Shown one piece after another: positions 8,818 to 47,692 of a stretch of DNA of 64,000 nt; within the stretch, counting starts at the first letter, position 1; every line of letters begins with the position of its first letter. The position numbers and the translations under genes were made by a program. Below the pieces are notes generated by a model. That model was given only the letters and a program-made list of their open reading frames with translations. It searched no databases and was not told the origin of the DNA. The DNA comes from a virus: the IMG/VR virus record IMGVR_UViG_3300012931_000015, positions 62,001-126,000 of that record; one strand, given 5' to 3'.

Positions 8818-11800
8818 TTAACCACACAAACTATAAAAACAAGTAGGACATTTCATACACGATTCACTAAAAACTAATTTTTCACCACATTCAGGACAAA
8901 TTACTGATGATTTTTCCCCTACTTTGATATATTTTAAAAGAGCTTTTGCAATACTTTTTTCTAGTGATAAAATTGAGCCTTGTGCTTTCTGTAATTGTTC
9001 AACTATAAATTTTAGATCAATCTCATGTCTTAATGCTAACGATATTAATCTAGTCAACCCTTCATTTGTAGGATTATCATAATATTTATTAATATCTTCT
9101 ATTACAATTTTACCATCAATTTCAACTTGATATATTTTTTTACTTTTCTTTATTAAGAAACATTCTTCAACATTGTCTTCAATATGAACTCCATTTTCTT
9201 TTCCAGCAAAAATCTCAAAAGGTTTATTATCAACCAATCCTAAAAATATATTCCAGCGTTCGCCTTTAAAATTAATTTTATAAATTTTAGTTTTAACTTT
9301 AATAGGTCTTTTTTTAGCAATTCTTTTATCTTGATTATTATCTTCTCTTATTAAGATACCTTCTCTGCATCCATCTCTATAAACAGTTACCCCTATAATA
9401 CCTAATTTATGAGCTTGTAAATATACTTCTTCAATATCTTGTACAGTAGCATTAGAAGGTAAATTAATTGTTTTACTAACACTAAGACTTACATTATAGC
9501 TGACTTTACTTAAAAGTTGTAAATGTTCTAATGGTTTAATGTCGCTTGCAACAACAAAAATTTGTTTTTCTTTATCTGTTAGATATTTTGATTTCTGGCA
9601 TGAACCATTATTACTTGATACTTCTTCTAAAATGTTTAATTTTTTATCAGAATAATTATTATCTAAATATTTATCAAATACAGGATCAGTTATAAATATT
9701 TCATCATATTGTTTATTTAACTTTTCAATTTTACGTTTGTAGGCTAGAGCAAAGACAGGTTCAATACCTCCCGATGTTTCTGCTAAAAACGAAATACTGC
9801 CTGTTGGGGCTATTGAACTTATATAACTATTTCTACTCCCATATTTCTTTAAATCTTTTTGTAGTTGTATTAAATCAATACCCGCAAACTCGTATTCAAT
9901 TTCAAAAAATCTTTTATTTGCATTAATAAATAATTCATAATCATAGCTAGGGTAACTGCCATATTCTTTTGCTAATTTTACAGAAGTTTCCATTCCTTTT
10001 AATGTGAGATATTTAATAACTTTATCTGTGAACTGATAAGCTTCTTCAGAATTATAAGATATATTTAACTTATAAAGACAATGTGCTAAACCCATAATTC
10101 CCAATCCAATTGGTCTAATGTTTAATGTAACATTTTTTATTTTTTCTAATGGATAACTATTATTATCTAGCACACTATTGAGAAAAAAAACACCTTTTTT
10201 AATTAGATCAGCATATTTAATCCAGTCAAATTGATTATCTTTATTTACTAAGTTATATAGGTTTATTGAAGCAAGGCAACAACTAGAGTAAGGAGCAGAA
10301 ACGAATTCGTGGCAATTAGAAATATTAAAACCATAACACCAAAAAGTATGAGATAAATTATTAACTGTAATATCATAAACTTCTTGAATACCTAAAGATT
10401 CTATTTTTTTTATTTCAAATGATTCTTTAATTTTGTTTTTGTTTTTTCTTAATTCACATTTTTGTATTAAAATTTCTAATTTTTCCATTTTATATTTTTG
10501 TAAAAATCCTATTGATTCGTAAAATTTTTGTCTATCATTAGATATTGATAAATCATAAGATTGTTTACATTGATATTCGCCATTTCTGAAATTAACTTTT
10601 TTTGGTTTATTTGTTGTATAGTAAGTTCTTATACCTAAAGAAGATAATATGATCTGTAAAGATTTAATCATATTAAAAGAAGCAGATTTATATGTTATTC
10701 TATCTCCAACTATACTACTATTGGCAGAATATAAACCTCGTAAAAAAGAATATAAATCATCTTTGTTCAATTTTAAAAATCTTTCAGGAATTTGTCTATT
10801 ATATGTTTTGCATATTTCGTGAGGTGTAAGTGATGTTTTTATTTCATAACCATTTTTAAAAGCTTTTTGTCTATCTTTAATTATAAGCTTCTCGACTTCT
10901 GAATTAAAATAATCTTGGTCATTTTTTCCTATAATCAAATATATTAAATTATTACTAGCTTTATGTACTGCTCCATCCCCCAAAACTAAGCCATCCATTA
11001 TATAATCTGGGTTAAATTTTTTTAAAGGTTCATAATTTCCTGATAAAATATCTATACTTTTTGCATTTTTTATTTGTGTTTTTACACCGTTTGTTATTAT
11101 TTCGTGGTTATCTGTTGATTCAAAAGTTCCTGCTGTTGTATAATATCTAAAAACTTCTTTTTTACCTGTACAAAACTTATTTATAACTTTAGTCCAACCT
11201 TCCTTAGACCATATAATGTCATTTATCTCAATATCATTTAAATTTTTTATACCCTGTGGTGTTAATATTTTTGCTGTATTAAGTAAACAAGGATTACTCA
11301 ATACATAATCAGTTACATTCTTTATAGGGCATCTATTCCATGCTATTGAATAGTTCATGAGTCCCGGCTCTGCCGAATTCCAAGCATTTTTAACAATTTT
11401 AAGCCATAACTCACTAACAGTAACTTTATTATTATTTTTATCTATCAAATCTATATATTCACCCGATTTTAATTTTACTTGATGAATGCTTTTAGGATTG
11501 TTTTGTAATTTATTATAAAACTCATCAATTATTTTTACTGAAAAATTAAACCTATTAAATTTTGTTAAATCTTTTTTAGCTTCTATGAAATCTAATATAT
11601 CAGGATGTTCTATTGATAAGATACTTGCCCCTGCACCACGTCTTACTCCATTTTGCTGGATACCATCTAATACAGCATTAAATATATTTATAAAAGGAAG
11701 TGGCCCGGAACTATTTCTATTTAAACTTATTATATTTTCTTGTGAACTTCTAAGCTGGGAATGGTCATAACCGACTCCCCCCGATGCTTTTGTAACTATT

Positions 11801-12060
11801 GCACATTCTTTTAAAGCATCAAAAATACCTTCAATACTATCTTCAATTGCCATAGGAAAACAACTACTAAGAGTACCTTTTCTTTCATTATTTGTATTTG
11901 CGTTCATTAGGGTAGGAGATGAAGGAATAAAATTCATATCTCTTATATCTTCATAAATAGGTTCATATAATTTACTAACTCGTTTTGCTATATCATCCCA
12001 TTCTTTTTCATCTTTTAAAAAATATCTATCCTGTAATAGTTTTAGTATATTGTCATTCAT
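8818..12060 (-). CDS. nrdJ: Class II (B12-dependent) ribonucleotide reductase with intein
   Basis: Converts ribonucleotides to deoxyribonucleotides using adenosylcobalamin. The precursor is 1080 residues: N-extein 1-257, intein 258-582, C-extein 583-1080, leaving about 755 residues after splicing. Extein features are the conserved NPC at the splice junction, PTGSISFLAETSGGIEP in the barrel, VSKTINLP and GVTVYRDGCREG, and a C-terminal zinc ribbon (CPECGEKL...CMKCPTC...C). That ribbon and the lack of a partner NrdB gene nearby point to class II rather than class I. ATG 12060 follows AAGGAA. It forms a dNTP-supply group with thioredoxin downstream and MazG upstream. Confidence 0.93.
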   Translation of the reverse strand: MNDNILKLLQDRYFLKDEKEWDDIAKRVSKLYEPIYEDIRDMNFIPSSPTLMNANTNNERKGTLSSCFPMAIEDSIEGIFDALKECAIVTKASGGVGYDHSQLRSSQENIISLNRNSSGPLPFINIFNAVLDGIQQNGVRRGAGASILSIEHPDILDFIEAKKDLTKFNRFNFSVKIIDEFYNKLQNNPKSIHQVKLKSGEYIDLIDKNNNKVTVSELWLKIVKNAWNSAEPGLMNYSIAWNRCPIKNVTDYVLSNPCLLNTAKILTPQGIKNLNDIEINDIIWSKEGWTKVINKFCTGKKEVFRYYTTAGTFESTDNHEIITNGVKTQIKNAKSIDILSGNYEPLKKFNPDYIMDGLVLGDGAVHKASNNLIYLIIGKNDQDYFNSEVEKLIIKDRQKAFKNGYEIKTSLTPHEICKTYNRQIPERFLKLNKDDLYSFLRGLYSANSSIVGDRITYKSASFNMIKSLQIILSSLGIRTYYTTNKPKKVNFRNGEYQCKQSYDLSISNDRQKFYESIGFLQKYKMEKLEILIQKCELRKNKNKIKESFEIKKIESLGIQEVYDITVNNLSHTFWCYGFNISNCHEFVSAPYSSCCLASINLYNLVNKDNQFDWIKYADLIKKGVFFLNSVLDNNSYPLEKIKNVTLNIRPIGLGIMGLAHCLYKLNISYNSEEAYQFTDKVIKYLTLKGMETSVKLAKEYGSYPSYDYELFINANKRFFEIEYEFAGIDLIQLQKDLKKYGSRNSYISSIAPTGSISFLAETSGGIEPVFALAYKRKIEKLNKQYDEIFITDPVFDKYLDNNYSDKKLNILEEVSSNNGSCQKSKYLTDKEKQIFVVASDIKPLEHLQLLSKVSYNVSLSVSKTINLPSNATVQDIEEVYLQAHKLGIIGVTVYRDGCREGILIREDNNQDKRIAKKRPIKVKTKIYKINFKGERWNIFLGLVDNKPFEIFAGKENGVHIEDNVEECFLIKKSKKIYQVEIDGKIVIEDINKYYDNPTNEGLTRLISLALRHEIDLKFIVEQLQKAQGSILSLEKSIAKALLKYIKVGEKSSVICPECGEKLVFSESCMKCPTCFYSLCG
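10315..11289 (-). mobile_element. Intein with LAGLIDADG endonuclease inside NrdJ
   Basis: A 325-residue in-frame insertion. It starts with Cys (CLLNTAKILTPQGIKNL), has block B-like FESTDNHEI, and ends with VYDITVNNLSHTFW...FNISN before a Cys of the C-extein, the usual Asn/Cys splice junction (the penultimate residue is Ser rather than His). The middle holds two LAGLIDADG-like helices (IMDGLVLGDGAV and FLRGLYSANSS), so it should be a full homing intein. It interrupts NP^C in the conserved active-site region, so no enzyme is made until splicing occurs. Confidence 0.93.
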
Positions 12061-23341: not shown

Positions 23342-23425
23342 TGGGAGCCGTGTGAGTCGAACACACCGAGCCCGAAAGCACCAGATTTACAGTCTGACCT
23401 GCCTCCACTTACAGAATAGACTCCC
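23342..23425 (-). tRNA. tRNA-Tyr (GTA)
   Basis: Acceptor GGGAGTC/GGCTCCC pairs fully (one G-U). The anticodon loop gives GTA. A long variable arm (GGTGCTTTCGGGCTC region) is proper for Tyr. The T-arm GTGTG-TTCGACT-CACAC is canonical. Discriminator A; CCA is not encoded. Confidence 0.93.
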
Positions 23426-23436
23426 ATTTAAAAAAA

Positions 23437-23510
23437 TAGCTTCGGAGGGATTTGAACCCATCACTACACAGAGCTTAAATCTGTTGACTCTTCCGTTGGT
23501 TTACGAAGCC
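23437..23510 (-). tRNA. tRNA-Leu (TAA), atypical
   Basis: Acceptor GGCTTCG/CGAAGCT and anticodon stem ACAGA/TCTGT pair well, with anticodon TAA. The variable loop is short, unlike normal Leu tRNAs. The D-stem is weak, and the T-stem GA-T-GGG/CCCTC has a bulged T. It lies next to a homing endonuclease gene. Confidence 0.75.
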
Positions 23511-23518
23511 ATACTATA

Positions 23519-24451
23519 TTAATTAATTTTCAGTTTTCTTCCTTTTATAAATCCTAATGATATATAAGAATCAAAAGCATTTTTATTTATTGATAATGAT
23601 TTTTTTTCTTTATCGGAATATACCCAAATTTTTCCATAATTATTATTATTTTCTTTTTGTTGATGCCTTATCTTTTTAAATGTATCGTATACTTTTTTAT
23701 GGGGTCTGTGGATTTTTAAAAGTATTTTTTCGTTATCTTTTTTTATCTTACTATATTTTTTCATAATTTTAATTATCTTATGTATGTTTTCCAATTTTAG
23801 TATTTTATCATTTAATGCTTTTACTTCCGCTATTCTTTTAATATCATATTTTTCGATAAAATTTCTAGCTACTGAAATATATTTTTTTGTATCATTAAAT
23901 AATTGTTTCCAAGAAATTCTTAATATGTGCCATCCATTATTTTGTAAATACTCATCTTTTCTTTTATCTCTAATAATATGTTGAATATACCTGTGATGTT
24001 GAGCACCATCAATTTCTATAGCTAACATTTTATTTACCCATGCAAAATCTATATGATATTTGTGAACATGATAATTATATTCATAATTTTTATCTTCAAA
24101 TTCATTCTCTATCACTTTCATAAAAAATTGTTCAGGATATGAAGGTATTCCTTTCCAATGATTAAAACCAATATTTGAAGCTCGTCCTTCCTTATGAGCT
24201 TTTTTCATGCCATCTGAAACTTTTTTCTTAAAATATTTTGTAAAACATTCAGTATTTCCGCATGTTTTAGTATAATTTATATTATTTTTATTTATACAAT
24301 CTTTACCACAGATAGGACATTTGGGTATTATAAAATTATCATATTTAATTTTATATTCTAATAATTTAATATTATGTTTACTATATAGATGTCTACTAAG
24401 TGATTGCAAGTTATTATATTGTTTTATATTACAAATTTTACATACGCCCAT
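23519..24451 (-). CDS. Vsr-like (EDxHD-type) homing endonuclease
   Basis: 310 residues. The N-terminus has two zinc-binding segments (CKICNIKQ with a later HLYSKH, and CPICGKDC...CGNTEC). The nuclease core is YHIDFAWVNKMLAIEIDG with QHHRY, then LQNNGWHILRISWKQL, the strand-helix-strand pattern of Vsr/PD-(D/E)xK-like nucleases such as I-Bth0305I. It sits inside the tRNA array between tRNA-Leu and tRNA-Ser, and probably moves between phages by cutting array sequence. AAGGAG precedes ATG 24451. Confidence 0.8.
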   Translation of the reverse strand: MGVCKICNIKQYNNLQSLSRHLYSKHNIKLLEYKIKYDNFIIPKCPICGKDCINKNNINYTKTCGNTECFTKYFKKKVSDGMKKAHKEGRASNIGFNHWKGIPSYPEQFFMKVIENEFEDKNYEYNYHVHKYHIDFAWVNKMLAIEIDGAQHHRYIQHIIRDKRKDEYLQNNGWHILRISWKQLFNDTKKYISVARNFIEKYDIKRIAEVKALNDKILKLENIHKIIKIMKKYSKIKKDNEKILLKIHRPHKKVYDTFKKIRHQQKENNNNYGKIWVYSDKEKKSLSINKNAFDSYISLGFIKGRKLKIN

Positions 24452-24467
24452 ACATAATTTTTCTCCT

Positions 24468-24519
24468 TATAGTGAATGATAATAAATTAATTTTTATGAA
24501 TCATAGCTTCCTCACTATA
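24468..24519. repeat. Inverted repeat upstream of the endonuclease gene
   Basis: TATAGTGA (24468-24475) is repeated inverted as TCACTATA (24512-24519), with a second pair AATGATA/TATCATT just inside and outside. It could be a transcript hairpin separating the endonuclease gene from the tRNAs, or a trace of insertion. Confidence 0.4.
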
Positions 24520-24529
24520 TAATATCATT

Positions 24530-24615
24530 CGGAAAACAGAGAACTCGAATCTCATACACTTATCATGTACAATCAGTTTAGCAAACTGTTTCTGCTCCTA
24601 GCAGATTTGTTTTCC
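24530..24615 (-). tRNA. tRNA-Ser (GCT)
   Basis: Acceptor GGAAAAC/GTTTTCC, anticodon loop TTGCTAA (GCT), long variable arm (TGTACATGATAAGTGTA), T-loop TTCGAGT and discriminator G, all expected for serine. The outermost T-stem pair is T-T. Confidence 0.92.
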
Positions 24616-24617
24616 AT

Positions 24618-24689
24618 AGCCTTCAGTTTGGACTTGAACCAACACAAAATCCTTACAAGGGATTTATACTACCATTATATTATGAAGGC
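24618..24689 (-). tRNA. tRNA-Thr (TGT)
   Basis: Acceptor GCCTTCA/TGAAGGC, D-stem ATAT/GTAT, anticodon stem AATCC/GGATT around CTTGTAA (TGT). The T-loop TTCAAGT is canonical, but the T-stem has an extra A on its 3' side (GTTGG/CCAA-A-C). Confidence 0.88.
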
Positions 24690-24696
24690 GTAAAAT

Positions 24697-24783
24697 CGGA
24701 AGATAGGTCTACTCGAAAGCCATGCTTTTTTCAGCACCTACCGATTTCAAGTCGGCGGTAGTACCCTGACTACTTTATCTTCC
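24697..24783 (-). tRNA. tRNA-Ser (TGA)
   Basis: Acceptor GGAAGAT/ATCTTCC, anticodon loop CTTGAAA (TGA), long variable arm and discriminator G fit serine. The T-loop TTCGAGT is normal, but the T-stem is irregular, with six bases on the 3' side and mismatches. Confidence 0.87.
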
Positions 24784-24789
24784 CAAATG

Positions 24790-24863
24790 GGTGTCTATGG
24801 AGAATTGAACTCCAACTATCAGAGCCACAATCTGACGTGCGAACCTTTAACACTTTAGACACC
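24790..24863 (-). tRNA. tRNA-His (GTG)
   Basis: An eight-pair acceptor GGTGTCTA/TAGACACC gives the G-1:C73 pair unique to His. The anticodon loop is TTGTGGC (GTG), T-arm TGGAG-TTCAATT-CTCCA. Canonical in every part. Confidence 0.93.
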
Positions 24864-24895
24864 ACACATAAAGTCAAAATGATATTTGACTATAT

Positions 24896-24967
24896 CGGAT
24901 TTACGGAGAATTGAACTCACGACTTCAGGTTAGACAGACCTGCATACTACCTTTATATTATAAATCC
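24896..24967 (-). tRNA. tRNA-Asp (GTC)
   Basis: Acceptor GGATTTA/TAAATCC, anticodon stem CAGGT/ACCTG with loop CTGTCTA (GTC), discriminator G. The T-stem is CG-T-GAG/CTCCG, with a bulged T at the same place as in tRNA-Leu. Confidence 0.9.
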
Positions 24968-24969
24968 AT

Positions 24970-25042
24970 TAGCGGATAGTAGATTTGCACTACTGACCTT
25001 CAGCTTATGAGGCTGTCGAGCTAACTACTGCTCCAATCCGCT
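24970..25042 (-). tRNA. tRNA-Met (CAT)
   Basis: Acceptor AGCGGAT/ATCCGCT, anticodon loop CTCATAA (CAT), T-stem AGTAG/CTACT. A1-T72 pairs, so it is an elongator (or a CAT tRNA modified to read ATA), not an initiator. The T-loop is TGCAAAT, with G in place of T55. Confidence 0.88.
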
Positions 25043-25047
25043 ATAAT

Positions 25048-25119
25048 AGCAATTAACCAGCAACGATCTGGTAATTTCAGCTTGGAAGGCTGATGTGTTG
25101 CCTATTACACTATACTTGC
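25048..25119 (-). tRNA. tRNA-Gly (TCC)
   Basis: Acceptor GCAAGTA/TAATTGC (one G-T), D-stem GTGT/ACAC with GG in the loop, anticodon stem TCAGC/GCTGA with CTTCCAA (TCC), T-stem ACCAG/CTGGT. The T-loop ATCGTTG departs from TTCRANY, lacking T54 and A58. Confidence 0.85.
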
Positions 25120-25143
25120 AAAAAATGTTTTCAAAGATCGTAT

Positions 25144-25214
25144 CAGTGGTTGAAGGTACTGCCCCTTCGCTTTGCGTGCCAAAAACGCAGGTACTACTTT
25201 TATACTAAACCACT
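25144..25214 (-). tRNA. tRNA-Gln (TTG), unusual elbow
   Basis: Acceptor AGTGGTT/AACCACT, anticodon stem TGCGT/ACGCA with TTTTGGC (TTG), T-stem GAAGG/CCTTC and discriminator G as for Gln. The T-loop is GGCAGTA and the D-loop has no adjacent GG, so the usual G18-psi55 and G19-C56 contacts cannot form. Confidence 0.82.
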
Positions 25215-25216
25215 CT

Positions 25217-25287
25217 TGGAGCTACTCAGAATTGAACTGAGATACTGAGCTTGAAAAGCTCATGTCCTGCCATTAGACGATAGCTCC
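25217..25287 (-). tRNA. tRNA-Glu (TTC)
   Basis: Acceptor GGAGCTA/TAGCTCC, anticodon stem TGAGC/GCTCA with TTTTCAA (TTC), T-arm CTCAG-TTCAATT-CTGAG. Canonical. First tRNA of the array in the transcription direction. Confidence 0.93.
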
Positions 25288-25294
25288 ATAAAAT

Positions 25295-25337
25295 AAAAAA
25301 GGCTTCAACACAACTTATAATAAATTATGTTAAAGCC
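25295..25337 (-). terminator. Terminator-like hairpin upstream of the tRNA array
   Basis: On the minus strand GGCTTTAACATAA (25337-25325) pairs with TTGTGTTGAAGCC (25313-25301) with two mismatches or wobbles, followed directly by TTTTTTATTT. A second hairpin ATTGAG/CTCAAT lies 3 bases upstream. It sits between the promoter at 25526-25554 and tRNA-Glu, so it would terminate or attenuate before the tRNAs, or mark an RNA-processing site. Confidence 0.6.
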
Positions 25338-25368
25338 CATATTGAGTTAATATCTCAATAAACTTATT

Positions 25369-25525: not shown

Positions 25526-25554
25526 ATTATACACCTTTTATTTAATATTGTCAA
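25526..25554 (-). promoter_or_regulatory. Consensus sigma70 promoter for the tRNA region
   Basis: TTGACA (25549-25554), exactly 17 bases, TATAAT (25526-25531): a perfect match to the bacterial housekeeping consensus. It heads the leader ORF and tRNA array. Confidence 0.8.
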
Positions 25555-32760: not shown

Positions 32761-34134
32761 TTATTCCTCAATAGTCTGGTCATCTTCAATATTTGTTATT
32801 CCTGTGTCTAATTCTTTTGTTTCGTGCTCTAAAAATTTTGTGGATTTTAATTTATAAGCTTCGATACCACTTTTTTCAATTCTTAACACAATACCTTCTC
32901 TTGGCACAACACAAGAAATATTCATTAGTTCGTTACCCTCAAGATAATCTTTTTTTAGTTTTTCAAGTAAATTTTCAGAAAATTCTTTACTAGAGTCATA
33001 TTCTTCACTATACCCCTGTTCAATCCAATCAAAAACTTTATAGGCAAACCCATAATATAATAATGGTACTGCCTTTATTCCATTTTCTTTGCACCAGTCC
33101 TGTACCTGTTTCATTGAGTATTCAAATACTTTACCATCAATATTTGTAAAAGTTATCCGATAAACATATATTTCAAATTGCCCCTGATTACAACCATAAT
33201 CATATCCTTTCTGAATATAACTGTTGTCCCCTAGATAACCAACTATTTCATAATAAATTGTCATGTTATTCTGCAATATTGGTAATAACCTGTCGTGAGC
33301 TCTTTTCCAAATATCTTCACTATAAAAGTCTGTAGGTTTCTTTGGGGTTTTATCATTATAAACAAACTGATTTTTTATAACACGGCGGGAAGCATACAAG
33401 TCTCTGTATTCTTTATCAACAATATTAACCCCAACTCTTTTTAGAATTTTCTCAAGAATGTTTAGTTTTTTGTTACATAAAATTTTACTTGATATAGAAC
33501 TTGTCCCGTGCATTTTTAAAGTTAAGGAAATTAAATCTTTTCCATTAGAATCAAGTTTATGTAAATTTCTTCCTAATTGTGAAGTATCTTCATGAAAATG
33601 AAATTGATTTTCAATAAGTAAATTAAATCTATTAAGATATTCTTTTCGTTTCTGCCCTGATCTCGATGTTGAATCATTTCTAACTACAACATATTTTTCA
33701 CATATTTTTATTCCGTTTAATTCATCAAACTCTGTACCTTCTATAAATCTATTATTATCAACATCTTCATATATTGCTGGAGAAGGAATATTTTTAAGAC
33801 TTTCAATAGGTATCCAAAACCCTTCTGATTTATTTTGTCGAAACTTAGCACACCTTATTCTTCCATTTTCTTCAAAGTAGCCTTTCTTTTCTTTATCAAC
33901 ATTTAGTTCCGGTTTTCTATAAAGATTATTATATGATAAAAATTCAGGTGATAGCTTTGTTTCAACAGGAAAAAATAACCCTAAATCACCAATTTTAACA
34001 TCTTTACTAACGATTACTAAATTACCAAAAATTGAGGTATGAACTACATTATCACAATTTGATAATGGGATAATATTTTTAATACTTACTACCACAGCGC
34101 AGTAATTTTTGTTTACGGGGTCTTTAATTCTCAT
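32761..34134 (-). CDS. RNA ligase, DraRnl (Rnl5)-type
   Basis: Seals 3'-OH/5'-phosphate RNA nicks through a lysine-AMP intermediate. 457 residues. The N-terminal 140 residues form an OB-like module (CAVVVSIKNIIPL, GLFFPVETKL) as in Deinococcus DraRnl. The nucleotidyltransferase domain carries LKMHGTS with the nucleophile Lys near 207, a GQFEIYVYRITF segment, EGIVLRIEK (motif IV) and YKLKS (motif V). It is directly downstream of the polynucleotide kinase/phosphatase gene, with 20 bases between, so the two form an RNA-repair unit likely to heal cut tRNAs. Confidence 0.9.
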   Translation of the reverse strand: MRIKDPVNKNYCAVVVSIKNIIPLSNCDNVVHTSIFGNLVIVSKDVKIGDLGLFFPVETKLSPEFLSYNNLYRKPELNVDKEKKGYFEENGRIRCAKFRQNKSEGFWIPIESLKNIPSPAIYEDVDNNRFIEGTEFDELNGIKICEKYVVVRNDSTSRSGQKRKEYLNRFNLLIENQFHFHEDTSQLGRNLHKLDSNGKDLISLTLKMHGTSSISSKILCNKKLNILEKILKRVGVNIVDKEYRDLYASRRVIKNQFVYNDKTPKKPTDFYSEDIWKRAHDRLLPILQNNMTIYYEIVGYLGDNSYIQKGYDYGCNQGQFEIYVYRITFTNIDGKVFEYSMKQVQDWCKENGIKAVPLLYYGFAYKVFDWIEQGYSEEYDSSKEFSENLLEKLKKDYLEGNELMNISCVVPREGIVLRIEKSGIEAYKLKSTKFLEHETKELDTGITNIEDDQTIEE

Positions 34135-34154
34135 TTTATTTCCTTATTATTTTA

Positions 34155-35051
34155 TTAAAATTTATTCTTGCAATAGACATCTTGATTTACATTAAAAGTA
34201 AACAATCCTAAGCTCTGCCACATATCAAGAACTTTAGGACGATCATCAATTACAAATAATACATTGTATTTGTCTTTTATTTCATTTTCATATATTTCTT
34301 TTTTTATTATGTTGTCCGGTCTGTTGTCATCAGCTTTTCTCATTAATAGTTTGTCAAACGGAATGTTGTTTTTATCTAACCATCTGATAGTTTGTTCTTT
34401 ACAGGAATCTTTTCTACCTGACAATAGAATTTTTGTAACTTCCCTATCATTTTTAATATTGTTAAGTATAAATTTAACAGGATAAATAACTTGATCTTCT
34501 ATAACTTTTGTTTCATCAAATTGCTGTCTTGACACATTTTTTGCAAGTGTGCCATCTAGGTCAATTATAGCACAATCTGGTAAATAAACATTATATTTAA
34601 TTTTTGGTTTTGAATCTTCTACCATTCTTCTTAGTTCAATCTCGTATTTTCTCCAAGTATTTTTTAATACATTCTCCCCGATAGAAAATTCTCTATTTTT
34701 ATCTCGTTCAATAGCTTCACCAAGCGTAATCGGAAATTCTTTTATTTCAATATCAATAATAACCGAACTTAAAGCTTCTTTTATTTTTCTAATATCTTCA
34801 TTAAGGGTTGTGTTATTTAAATTCATTTTGTCAACAATAACATTATAATTGTTTTTTAAAAGAGTTATTATTGCTTGGTATTCTAATTCGGTAACAAGTT
34901 TTTCTGTTTCTTTAGAAAAGGAATAGTTATCAAGCATGTGTCTAAAAGCATCACGATTTACAATTCTGTAATCTTTATTGGTTTTTACAAATTCTTTAGC
35001 ATAAAAACTTTTTCCGCTTGCCTGCATGCCACGCAAATATATTATTTTCAT
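34155..35051 (-). CDS. Polynucleotide 5'-kinase/3'-phosphatase
   Basis: 298 residues with the T4 Pnkp order: an N-terminal P-loop kinase (YLRGMQASGKSFYAKEF, NRD, DKMNLNN) and a C-terminal HAD phosphatase (CAIIDLDGTLAKNVSR near 160-176, LLSGRKD, VIDDRPKVLDMW). It converts 2',3'-cyclic or 3'-phosphate ends to OH and phosphorylates 5' ends, preparing them for the ligase next door. ATG 35051 gives the proper N-terminus; AAAGGA precedes it. The promoter at 35072-35100 should drive both genes. Confidence 0.92.
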   Translation of the reverse strand: MKIIYLRGMQASGKSFYAKEFVKTNKDYRIVNRDAFRHMLDNYSFSKETEKLVTELEYQAIITLLKNNYNVIVDKMNLNNTTLNEDIRKIKEALSSVIIDIEIKEFPITLGEAIERDKNREFSIGENVLKNTWRKYEIELRRMVEDSKPKIKYNVYLPDCAIIDLDGTLAKNVSRQQFDETKVIEDQVIYPVKFILNNIKNDREVTKILLSGRKDSCKEQTIRWLDKNNIPFDKLLMRKADDNRPDNIIKKEIYENEIKDKYNVLFVIDDRPKVLDMWQSLGLFTFNVNQDVYCKNKF

Positions 35052-35071
35052 ATTTAATCCTTTCATTAACT

Positions 35072-46492: not shown

Positions 46493-47692
46493 ATGAAAGA
46501 AACTAAAAGACAAAACATTATTAAATCTCTTCAAGAAACGAAAGAAAAAAGAAAAACTCAAAAATGTTTGGTTTTTGAATTAAAAATAAATTATTCTAAA
46601 TTAAATAAAGTCCAAAAAGAAACATTAAAAATGTTTTTTGTAGAAGCTAAGTGGTTATATAATTTTTATTTATCAACAGATGATATTTTTAATCAATCAG
46701 ATAAAATAGAAAAAGTTATAATTAAAGATAAAGATAAAAAGGATATAGAAAAAAAATTACAATATTTACCCGCTCAAGTAAAACAAACAATTCTAAAACA
46801 ATTAAAACAAAATGTTTATAATTTAAGCAGAGCTAAAAAGAAAAATAATAAAGTTGGTAAATTAAAATTTAAATCTGAAATTAATTCTATTGATTTTAAT
46901 CAATATGGTAATACTCATAGAATAATAAATAATAATTTATTTAAAATTGGGAGAATAAAAAAATATATTAAAGTTCACGGTCTAAATCAAATCAAACCAG
47001 AATATGAGATTGCAAATGCAAAATTAATAAAAAAAGCAAGTGGGTATTATATTAAATTAACTTGTTTTGAAAATTTGAATAGTAAAGATTTTAACTTTAT
47101 AAATAATAAAAAAGGAGATGTAGGAATTGATTTTGGAATTAAAGATAATATTGTAACATCTGATGGAGAGTTTTTTAATATAAAAATTCAAGAAGATGAA
47201 CACTTAAAAAGATTGCAAAGAAAATTTGCAAGACAAAAAAAAGGTTCAAAGAATTTTTATAAAACAAAACAAAAAATTAAAAGATGTTATGAAAAAATAT
47301 CTAATAAAAAACAAGATCAAGTAAATAAATTAGTAAATTATCTTTGTACTAGTTACACATCAATTTATATGCAAGATGAGAATTTAAAAGGGTGGCATTT
47401 AGGGCTGTTTGGGAAACAAGTTCAGCATTCAGCATTAGGAAGTATAAAACAAAAACTTTTTAAACAAAAAAATGTAATAATTATTAATAGGTTTGAACCT
47501 ACAACAAAACTTTGTCATGAATGCGGAGCTATTAATAAAGATATAAAACTATCTGATAGAATTTTTAAATGTGCCTGTGGTTATGAAGAACACAGAGATA
47601 TTAAATCTGCTAAAACAATCAGATTTATAGGTAGATTTAAAAATAATTATATACCTACGGAACATAGGGATTTTAAGCCTGTGGAGAAATAA
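46493..47692 (+). CDS. tnpB: TnpB, RNA-guided transposon nuclease
   Basis: 399 residues, the only rightward gene after 668. The RuvC-like core holds DVGIDFGIKDN (Asp about 213), YMQDENLKG (Glu about 296) and EEHRDIKSAKTI (Asp about 369). A Cys4 zinc knuckle CHEC...CACG sits at about 341-362. An N-terminal helical/wedge region (EAKWLYNFYL, YLPAQVKQTILKQL) is present, so the protein looks complete and active. No TnpA transposase is in the window. TnpB proteins use an RNA made from the element's right end to cut DNA beside a short motif, which helps IS200/IS605 elements persist. In a phage it may act as a homing nuclease. Confidence 0.9.
   Translation: MKETKRQNIIKSLQETKEKRKTQKCLVFELKINYSKLNKVQKETLKMFFVEAKWLYNFYLSTDDIFNQSDKIEKVIIKDKDKKDIEKKLQYLPAQVKQTILKQLKQNVYNLSRAKKKNNKVGKLKFKSEINSIDFNQYGNTHRIINNNLFKIGRIKKYIKVHGLNQIKPEYEIANAKLIKKASGYYIKLTCFENLNSKDFNFINNKKGDVGIDFGIKDNIVTSDGEFFNIKIQEDEHLKRLQRKFARQKKGSKNFYKTKQKIKRCYEKISNKKQDQVNKLVNYLCTSYTSIYMQDENLKGWHLGLFGKQVQHSALGSIKQKLFKQKNVIIINRFEPTTKLCHECGAINKDIKLSDRIFKCACGYEEHRDIKSAKTIRFIGRFKNNYIPTEHRDFKPVEK

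Follow-up and report, generated by a model that had tools for sequence, protein, structure and literature searches.

Covarying Elbow Bases Point to Re-Paired Rather than Decayed tRNAs in a Phage tRNA Array

Introduction

Do unusual T-arms in phage tRNAs mark genes in decay, or do they belong to working molecules, the elbow of which is held together by other bases? The question is raised by an array of 11 tRNA genes on the minus strand (23342-25287) of a 64,000-nucleotide stretch of viral DNA, hereafter termed the window, which comprises positions 62001-126000 of the IMG/VR virus record IMGVR_UViG_3300012931_000015 (163,578 bases). In PMC6337575, PMC4810234 and PMC7912444 the tRNA contacts G18:U55 and U54:A58 are called invariant or conserved; in the former two, invariance is attributed to G18:pseudouridine-55 and G19:C56, or universal conservation to position 55. 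An initial annotation of the array listed seven T-arm oddities, regarded the tRNAs as something other than random ruins and proposed that altered elbows might avoid T-loop modification or nuclease recognition. All seven oddities are present in the sequence.

We argue from sequence comparisons that most of the odd T-loops reflect compensation of elbow contacts and not decay, and that the window tRNAs are quite probably intact and functional, their elbows being held by replacement tertiary contacts that drifted under selection for shape.

Elbow Swaps in the Window

The two tRNAs of the array with G55, Met and Gln, also carry a change in the D-loop that the initial annotation overlooked, namely A18 in place of G18. 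In tRNA-Met(CAT) (24970-25042, minus strand, as are all tRNA genes of the array) the D-loop reads AGTAGTTA with A18 at 25026, and the T-loop TGCAAAT (24983-24989) has G55 at 24988. tRNA-Gln(TTG) (25144-25214) combines the D-loop AAAAGTA, including A18 at 25198 and a retained G19, with the T-loop GGCAGTA (25157-25163), which contributes G54, G55, C56 and G58. tRNA-Gly(TCC) (25048-25119) has a normal GG in its D-loop AATAGGCA and retains U55 and C56, and its T-loop ATCGTTG (25061-25067) has A54 and U58 where U54:A58 would be expected. The three T-loops are those claimed at the outset, and the RF00005 alignment agrees with them. Measured against a UUCRA T-loop with G18G19, the T-loops of Met, Gln and Gly all deviate, and Met and Gln also lack G18; G19:C56 is retained in all three. 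A homologue of the window tRNA-Met in the huge-phage record LR745206 (77.6% identity) possesses the D-loop AGTGGTCA and the T-loop TTCGAAT, the two genes differing at both 18 and 55 as well as elsewhere.

In the mechanism that we propose, A18:G55 would stand in for G18:U55 in Met and Gln, while A54/U58 in Gly, and G54/G58 in Gln, would take the place of U54:A58. Together with U54 and A58, the A18:G55 of Met would yield a U-G-C-R-A T-loop of the UGNRA type, in which the G contacts an outside A. Such contacts are common for the triloop G in UGNRA lonepair triloops of other RNAs, according to a part of PMC2258182. The UGCAA of the window Met likewise fits the series U, G, N, purine, A, whereas the outside A would here come from the D-loop of a tRNA (position 18), and the GGCAG of the window Gln lacks the U...A closing pair. 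With G19:C56 retained on the outer face of the elbow, the fold should stand. Compared with the elongator tRNA of RF00005, the array is alike in its acceptor and anticodon arms, its class I and class II variable loops and G19:C56, and unlike it in replacing 18:55 (Met, Gln) and 54:58 (Gly, Gln) and in having one nucleotide more in four T-stems.

The loss of U55 in Met and Gln chemically entails that these tRNAs have no pseudouridine at position 55, and the loss of U54 in Gln and Gly that they have no 5-methyluridine at position 54. The proposed avoidance of T-loop modification therefore follows from chemistry wherever U54 or U55 is replaced; that it was selected for is not established.

Covariation across Viral tRNAs

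If replaced elbow bases are compensated, their partners should change with them in other viruses. In a fixed-frame test, IMG/VR was searched for a common D-arm with any non-G base at position 19, which yielded 56 stretches, 15 of which were dropped as unparsed or scoring at most 20. The 19:56 pair is of the Watson-Crick type in 35 of the 41 parsed tRNAs (A-U 26, C-G 5, U-A 4), some rows duplicating a sequence. The search for non-G bases at position 18 returned 28 stretches, 17 of which scored above 20, while 11 were dropped; A18 occurs with G55 in 11 of the 17 rows, including two (L275, L284) that parse poorly. A repeated tRNA-like gene with A18, the T-loop CGCAACT and an unparsed anticodon arm is found at loci L274, L275, L284, L290, L294, L296 and L299 and is perhaps intron-bearing.

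An unanchored test employed a purpose-built structural scanner, adopted because ARAGORN at lowered thresholds yielded many false genes. It provided 524 viral tRNAs that are less than 90% identical and score at least 31, including 486 without a search pattern; for the D-loop, nothing stricter was asked than the presence of a dinucleotide at a plausible place. In a control, the scanner returned 3 matches of at least 29 on one strand of reversed sequences, compared to 826 on both strands of the real ones, and thus perhaps 6 false matches are to be expected. One of its nine matches in the window (T-loop TCATATT, score 29.6) is plainly false, and a few low-scoring comparison matches also look false. 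The scanner also misses tRNAs, the Leu, the His and both Ser of the window being lost. Model searches that yielded 547 and 166 tRNA matches did not enter the counts.

Among the 486 tRNAs without the search pattern, all 10 with G55C56, including the window Met and Gln, have AG and none has GG in the D-loop, and the association of G55 with the absence of GG yields a P of 8e-12; these counts ignore shared descent, and since viral pattern loci had been picked for an odd tRNA, the rates are not population rates. U56 is accompanied by GA in 20 of 22 cases, and A56 by GT in 3 of 3, none of which has GG. The background is given by the 440 tRNAs with U55C56, 432 of which have GG in the D-loop and 8 do not, with AG in 63, GA in 53 and GT in 297. 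Over all 524 tRNAs the 54:58 pair is U-A in 498, A-U in 12, G-G in 5, A-A in 4 and another combination in 5, such that A54 is accompanied by U58 in 12 of 16 cases. In one stretch (locus L104) of a 212-kb record, every one of the eight tRNAs found by the unanchored scanner has an odd T-arm, and G54/G58 is present in three.

Joint change of partner positions is hard to reconcile with decay, according to which the odd T-arms would represent tRNA pseudogenes that are losing their function. This explanation could appeal to the sheer number of affected genes, as some T-arm oddity is found in 7 of the 11, to the canonical paralogue of tRNA-Gln elsewhere in the genome, and to four T-stem insertions without obvious compensation. 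Yet, the stems are as intact as those of canonical viral tRNAs: all seven acceptor pairs form in 0.91 of the 101 odd and in 0.91 of the 423 canonical tRNAs, and all five anticodon stem pairs in 0.85 and 0.82, respectively. In the window the acceptor and anticodon stems are sound, as noted before, and U33 is present, with small exceptions (a G.A in the Gly acceptor stem, an A.A at 27-43 of Met and a weak D-stem in Leu). Moreover, a tRNA-Tyr with A18:G55 occurs in two genera of herelleviruses (see below). Stem integrity and covariation led us to reject plain decay, which we consider very improbable, and the view that these tRNAs are not random ruins is well supported, since changes in the T-loop are matched by the D-loop partner, and stems are equally intact whether a tRNA is odd or canonical.

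tRNA-Tyr of Enterococcus Phages

The tRNA-Tyr of Enterococcus phage PBEF129 has the D-loop GTAAGTAGTA and the T-loop TGCGACT. A 101-base stretch with this gene has matches of at least 97% identity in 37 records, duplicates included, and the letters were checked in two of the phages, PBEF129 and EF24C. When 13 tRNA-Tyr genes are aligned, A18 goes with G55 in all four from Enterococcus herelleviruses, namely PBEF129 and EF24C (Kochikohdavirus) as well as EFDG1 and vB_Edu_21C1 (Schiekvirus), while GG is found with U55 in the window tRNA-Tyr and in eight genes from Escherichia, Klebsiella and Cronobacter phages. Therefore, A18:G55 is a state of tRNA-Tyr common to two genera, the genes of which otherwise differ. 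Such swapped genes can escape annotation, as many places matching this tRNA-Tyr carry no tRNA feature. Cutting of tRNA-Tyr by Septu is the subject of PMC13096335.

Elbow Swaps in Cellular tRNAs

The covariation extends to cells. A GTDB search for D-arms with a non-G base at position 19 returned at least 115 stretches; 107 of 118 matches were parsed and 11 dropped. Among the GTDB matches listed, the 19:56 pair is formed in 104 of the 107 parsed tRNAs (A-U 53, U-A 51) and mismatched in 3, and merging identical tRNA fields leaves A-U in 27, U-A in 15 and a mismatch in 3. Saccharibacteria appear in 52 of the 80 record titles listed for these matches, and some Alphaproteobacteria are also found. 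At the cellular loci L159-L273, a tRNA-Gly(GCC) with U19:A56 (48 rows) and Ala or Val tRNAs with A19:U56 recur, many of the genomes being titled Saccharibacteria. In view of these sequences, there may be a bacterial lineage in which elbow swaps have become fixed.

Two phyla were surveyed around anchor genomes. In the phylum of the Flavobacteriaceae anchor (61 genomes), the D-arms among the matches listed outside the anchor genome all have GG. In that of the Saccharibacteria anchor (59 genomes), the only ones without GG among the matches listed are three A18 tRNAs from two genomes, and all three carry G55. A purely viral phenomenon was rejected on these grounds: the swap is not confined to viruses, because three cellular A18 tRNAs have G55 and cellular non-G19 tRNAs keep the 19:56 pair.

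Phage tRNAs might then mirror, or derive from, the machinery of a host lineage, the own tRNAs of which use such elbows. The non-G19 tRNAs with a Watson-Crick 19:56 pair in genomes titled Saccharibacteria and in some Alphaproteobacteria are consistent with such host matching, as is A18:G55 in the two genomes mentioned above. However, a single phage uses different swaps in different tRNAs, the window phage also has a second, canonical tRNA-Gln, and A18:G55 is carried by Enterococcus phages as well, all of which makes host matching unlikely.

Extra Nucleotides in the T-Stems

Four tRNAs of the array have a single additional T-stem nucleotide, a feature separate from the elbow swaps. As initially described, the additional base of Leu and Asp is a T located at the same T-stem position in both; it lies in the 5' strand, the structural parser reading GA(T)GGG[TTCAAAT]CCCTC in tRNA-Leu(TAA) (23437-23510; T at 23460; short variable loop) and CG(T)GAG[TTCAATT]CTCCG in tRNA-Asp(GTC) (24896-24967; T at 24919). 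In the 3' strand, an additional A is found in tRNA-Thr(TGT) (24618-24689; one of 24627-24629), parsed as GTTGG[TTCAAGT]CCAA(A)C, and in the class II tRNA-Ser(TGA) (24697-24783; A at 24708), read by hand as GGCT[TTCGAGT]AG(A)CC. The parser prefers a shifted five-pair T-stem for the latter tRNA; we chose the hand reading because it retains the canonical T-loop TTCGAGT. A covariance-model check, which had been called for, supported the extra bases: RF00005 inserts a T-stem base in Leu, Asp and Thr, and no alternative, normal T-arm emerged from its alignments.

tRNA-Ser(GCT) (24530-24615, class II), which the initial annotation did not mention, deviates slightly. Its T-loop is the canonical TTCGAGT, the parser finds a bulged T, and energy favours a four-pair T-stem, GAGA/TCTC; the whole molecule is predicted to fold into a cloverleaf, the acceptor stem having eight pairs and the T-stem four. 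Both Ser tRNAs could adopt this 8/4 plan with A at position 8, unlike the usual 7/5 tRNA-Ser, A8-U65 being possible as the eighth acceptor pair of Ser(TGA). Leu, Asp and Thr parse as seven acceptor pairs plus five T-stem pairs, a single base being inserted into the T-stem, and not as 8/4 or 9/3. An unpaired T-stem nucleotide is also found in selC* tRNA-Cys (A51a bulge) and allo-tRNAs, as described in PMC7609411, and the 8/4 plan, if adopted by the Ser tRNAs of the window as their predicted folds allow, would be a further likeness; in contrast, Leu, Asp and Thr keep 7/5 with an insertion, and anticodons and identities are different. At the place seen in Leu and Asp, a T is likewise inserted in a tRNA with an Ile anticodon, encoded by another phage that has odd tRNAs (locus L158).

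The array is enriched in odd T-arms and in extra T-stem nucleotides. At least 7 of its 11 tRNAs have an odd T-arm by hand, compared to 12 of 174 by the scanner in comparison phages and relatives (Fisher P ~1e-5), and the scanner alone assigns an odd T-arm to 5 of 7 window tRNAs. An additional T-stem nucleotide is present in 4 of 11 window tRNAs by hand versus 7 of 548 viral tRNAs by the scanner (P ~2.5e-5); with the scanner on both sides the comparison is 2 of 9, one of these nine being the false match, versus 7 of 548 (P ~0.008). No compensating change analogous to the elbow swaps was found for the T-stem insertions, and we assume that the extra nucleotides are probably bulged and tolerated.

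Evidence against Compensation

A number of observations weigh against compensated elbows and intact, bulged T-stems. In the fixed-frame viral set, 19:56 is uncompensated in 6 of 41 rows (A19:C56 in 4, C19:C56 in 2), and among the 17 rows with a non-G base at position 18, A18:U55 accounts for 3 (all of one sequence) and T18 with U55 for another 3, one T18 row being alternatively readable as G18 with U19:A56. All 11 tRNAs with C55 among the 486 keep GG and an unchanged D-loop. These have the T-loop TCCRA and come from loci L107, L131, L132, L147, L276 and L291; to judge by such genes, G18:C55 seems to be tolerated without compensation. Furthermore, energy does not clearly favour the bulge, as the T-arms of Leu and Thr folded alone are lower as a shorter, unbulged stem; those of Asp and Ser(TGA) are lower in the bulged form, and the whole-molecule fold of Leu contains the bulged T-stem. 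When whole molecules are folded to minimum energy, a cloverleaf results for Gly, Gln and Ser(GCT) but not for Met, Asp, Thr or Ser(TGA), tertiary contacts lying outside the model. Finally, the relatives that were found via the RNA ligase of the window and parsed have tRNA sets that differ from that of the window, and shared ancestry of the array was rejected for this reason. These relatives contain cases of A18 with G55, A19 with U56, C19 with G56 and A54 with U58. Relatives of the RNA ligase itself are found in Synechococcus, Prevotella Lak and mycobacterial phages, and two further protein queries from the window gave no relatives.

Escape from tRNA-Cutting Hosts

The oddities might instead be selected for escape: altered T-arms would dodge a nuclease or modification enzyme of the host for which the T-arm or elbow serves as recognition site, and the phage could translate while host tRNAs are cut. 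T-stem insertions and elbow swaps are combined in the window phage, and odd tRNAs are concentrated in certain records, since the unanchored scanner finds 8 of 8 at L104, 6 of 14 at L276 and 6 of 13 at L147. Escape mutations in the anticodon loop have been proposed for phage tRNAs in a part of PMC10264068. Those tRNAs resemble the ones in the window in departing from host tRNAs at positions relevant to recognition, whereas the window changes lie in the D/T elbow and the T-stem; a term search of the main text of that paper gave no mention of T-loop, D-loop or T-arm. The nuclease Cas12a3 touches the T-arm, and mutating its contact residues weakened targeting in a cell-free assay, according to a part of PMC12851939; however, the same source places this contact at the T-arm backbone, and removal of tRNA loops left in vitro cutting unimpaired. 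No nuclease was found that recognises the bases at 18/55, 19/56 or 54/58.

Adjacent genes for an RNA ligase and a polynucleotide kinase-phosphatase (PNKP), resembling a tRNA repair pair (32761-35066, minus strand), would suit a phage confronted with hosts that cut tRNAs. Yet, the PNKP domain is found in only 4 of the 22 records with an odd-D-arm match, many of which are fragments. One of these four records measures 164 kb, and the domain is absent from records of 212, 202, 171 and 158 kb; an RNA repair gene was therefore dropped as a marker of phages with odd elbows. The swaps in cellular tRNAs likewise argue against a purely viral arms race. In sum, selected escape is conceivable, although we regard it as doubtful.

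Array and Neighbouring Genes

In reading order, the array comprises the genes for Glu, Gln, Gly, Met, Asp, His, Ser(TGA), Thr, Ser(GCT), Leu and Tyr. The first gene, tRNA-Glu(TTC) (25217-25287), has the canonical T-arm CTCAG[TTCAATT]CTGAG, and the T-arm of tRNA-His(GTG) (24790-24862) is also canonical. tRNA-Tyr(GTA) (23342-23425), the homologue of the Enterococcus-phage gene with A18:G55, has the canonical T-loop TTCGACT and G18G19. An endonuclease gene of the DUF559/MTES_1575 type is located between tRNA-Ser(GCT) and tRNA-Leu, and the second, canonical-elbow tRNA-Gln(TTG) lies elsewhere in the same record. Eight of the 11 array genes exceed the RF00005 gathering cut-off of 29 bits, seven in the scan of the whole window and Gln (42.6 bits) in a narrower scan; Tyr, Ser(GCT) and Ser(TGA) remain below it in the window scan. 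ARAGORN finds Tyr and, at a low threshold, both Ser tRNAs.

Upstream of the array, a match to a sigma-70-type promoter (TTGACA-17-TATAAT, 12/12; 25526-25554, minus strand) was identified by consensus alone, and the region contains 26 promoter-like sites compared to 16.3 expected; the match counts in favour of a working array. Immediately upstream of tRNA-Glu, an 18-pair hairpin followed by a T-run (25300-25338, minus strand; z-score -6.48) resembles a terminator or attenuator. Read-through or attenuation may control the array; alternatively, the leader might itself be a small RNA.

The window also encodes the large subunit of ribonucleotide reductase (8818-12060, minus strand), in which a LAGLIDADG domain spanning residues 438-518 probably represents an intein. 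The phrog_506 family is represented by two transposase genes, one in the window (46493-47692, plus strand), which has OrfB/Cas12f1-like domains of the TnpB type, and one at locus L021 (11530-12792).

Conclusions

The elbow bases of the window tRNAs are changed, and such changes covary over many viral tRNAs. We favour the reading that the window tRNAs are made, charged and used, their elbow changes having accumulated while selection on phage tRNAs would preserve shape, exact-base recognition by host enzymes being less important. A phage tRNA would need only to fold and work for one infection, such that paired positions may drift together; neutral compensatory drift of this kind accounts for the data as well as nuclease escape. 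A broader proposal, in which 18:55, 19:56 and 54:58 form an exchangeable, covarying code in phages, some Saccharibacteria and their relatives, used by phages together with T-stem insertions to build tRNAs that are free of the usual T-loop modifications and evade host immunity directed at the T-arm or elbow, is rather unlikely.

Selection studies on tRNAs with altered D- and T-loops exist. PMC6337575 is one of them. Among the titles and abstract openings of the open-licence literature, no account of elbow covariation in natural phage or bacterial tRNAs was found, nor any literature on tRNA loops of Patescibacteria. One swap is accessible to bench experiments, since Enterococcus phages that carry it, EF24C among them, are in culture, and natural double mutants provide a means to ask whether the bases of the tRNA elbow are conserved for shape, modification, processing or recognition by nucleases.

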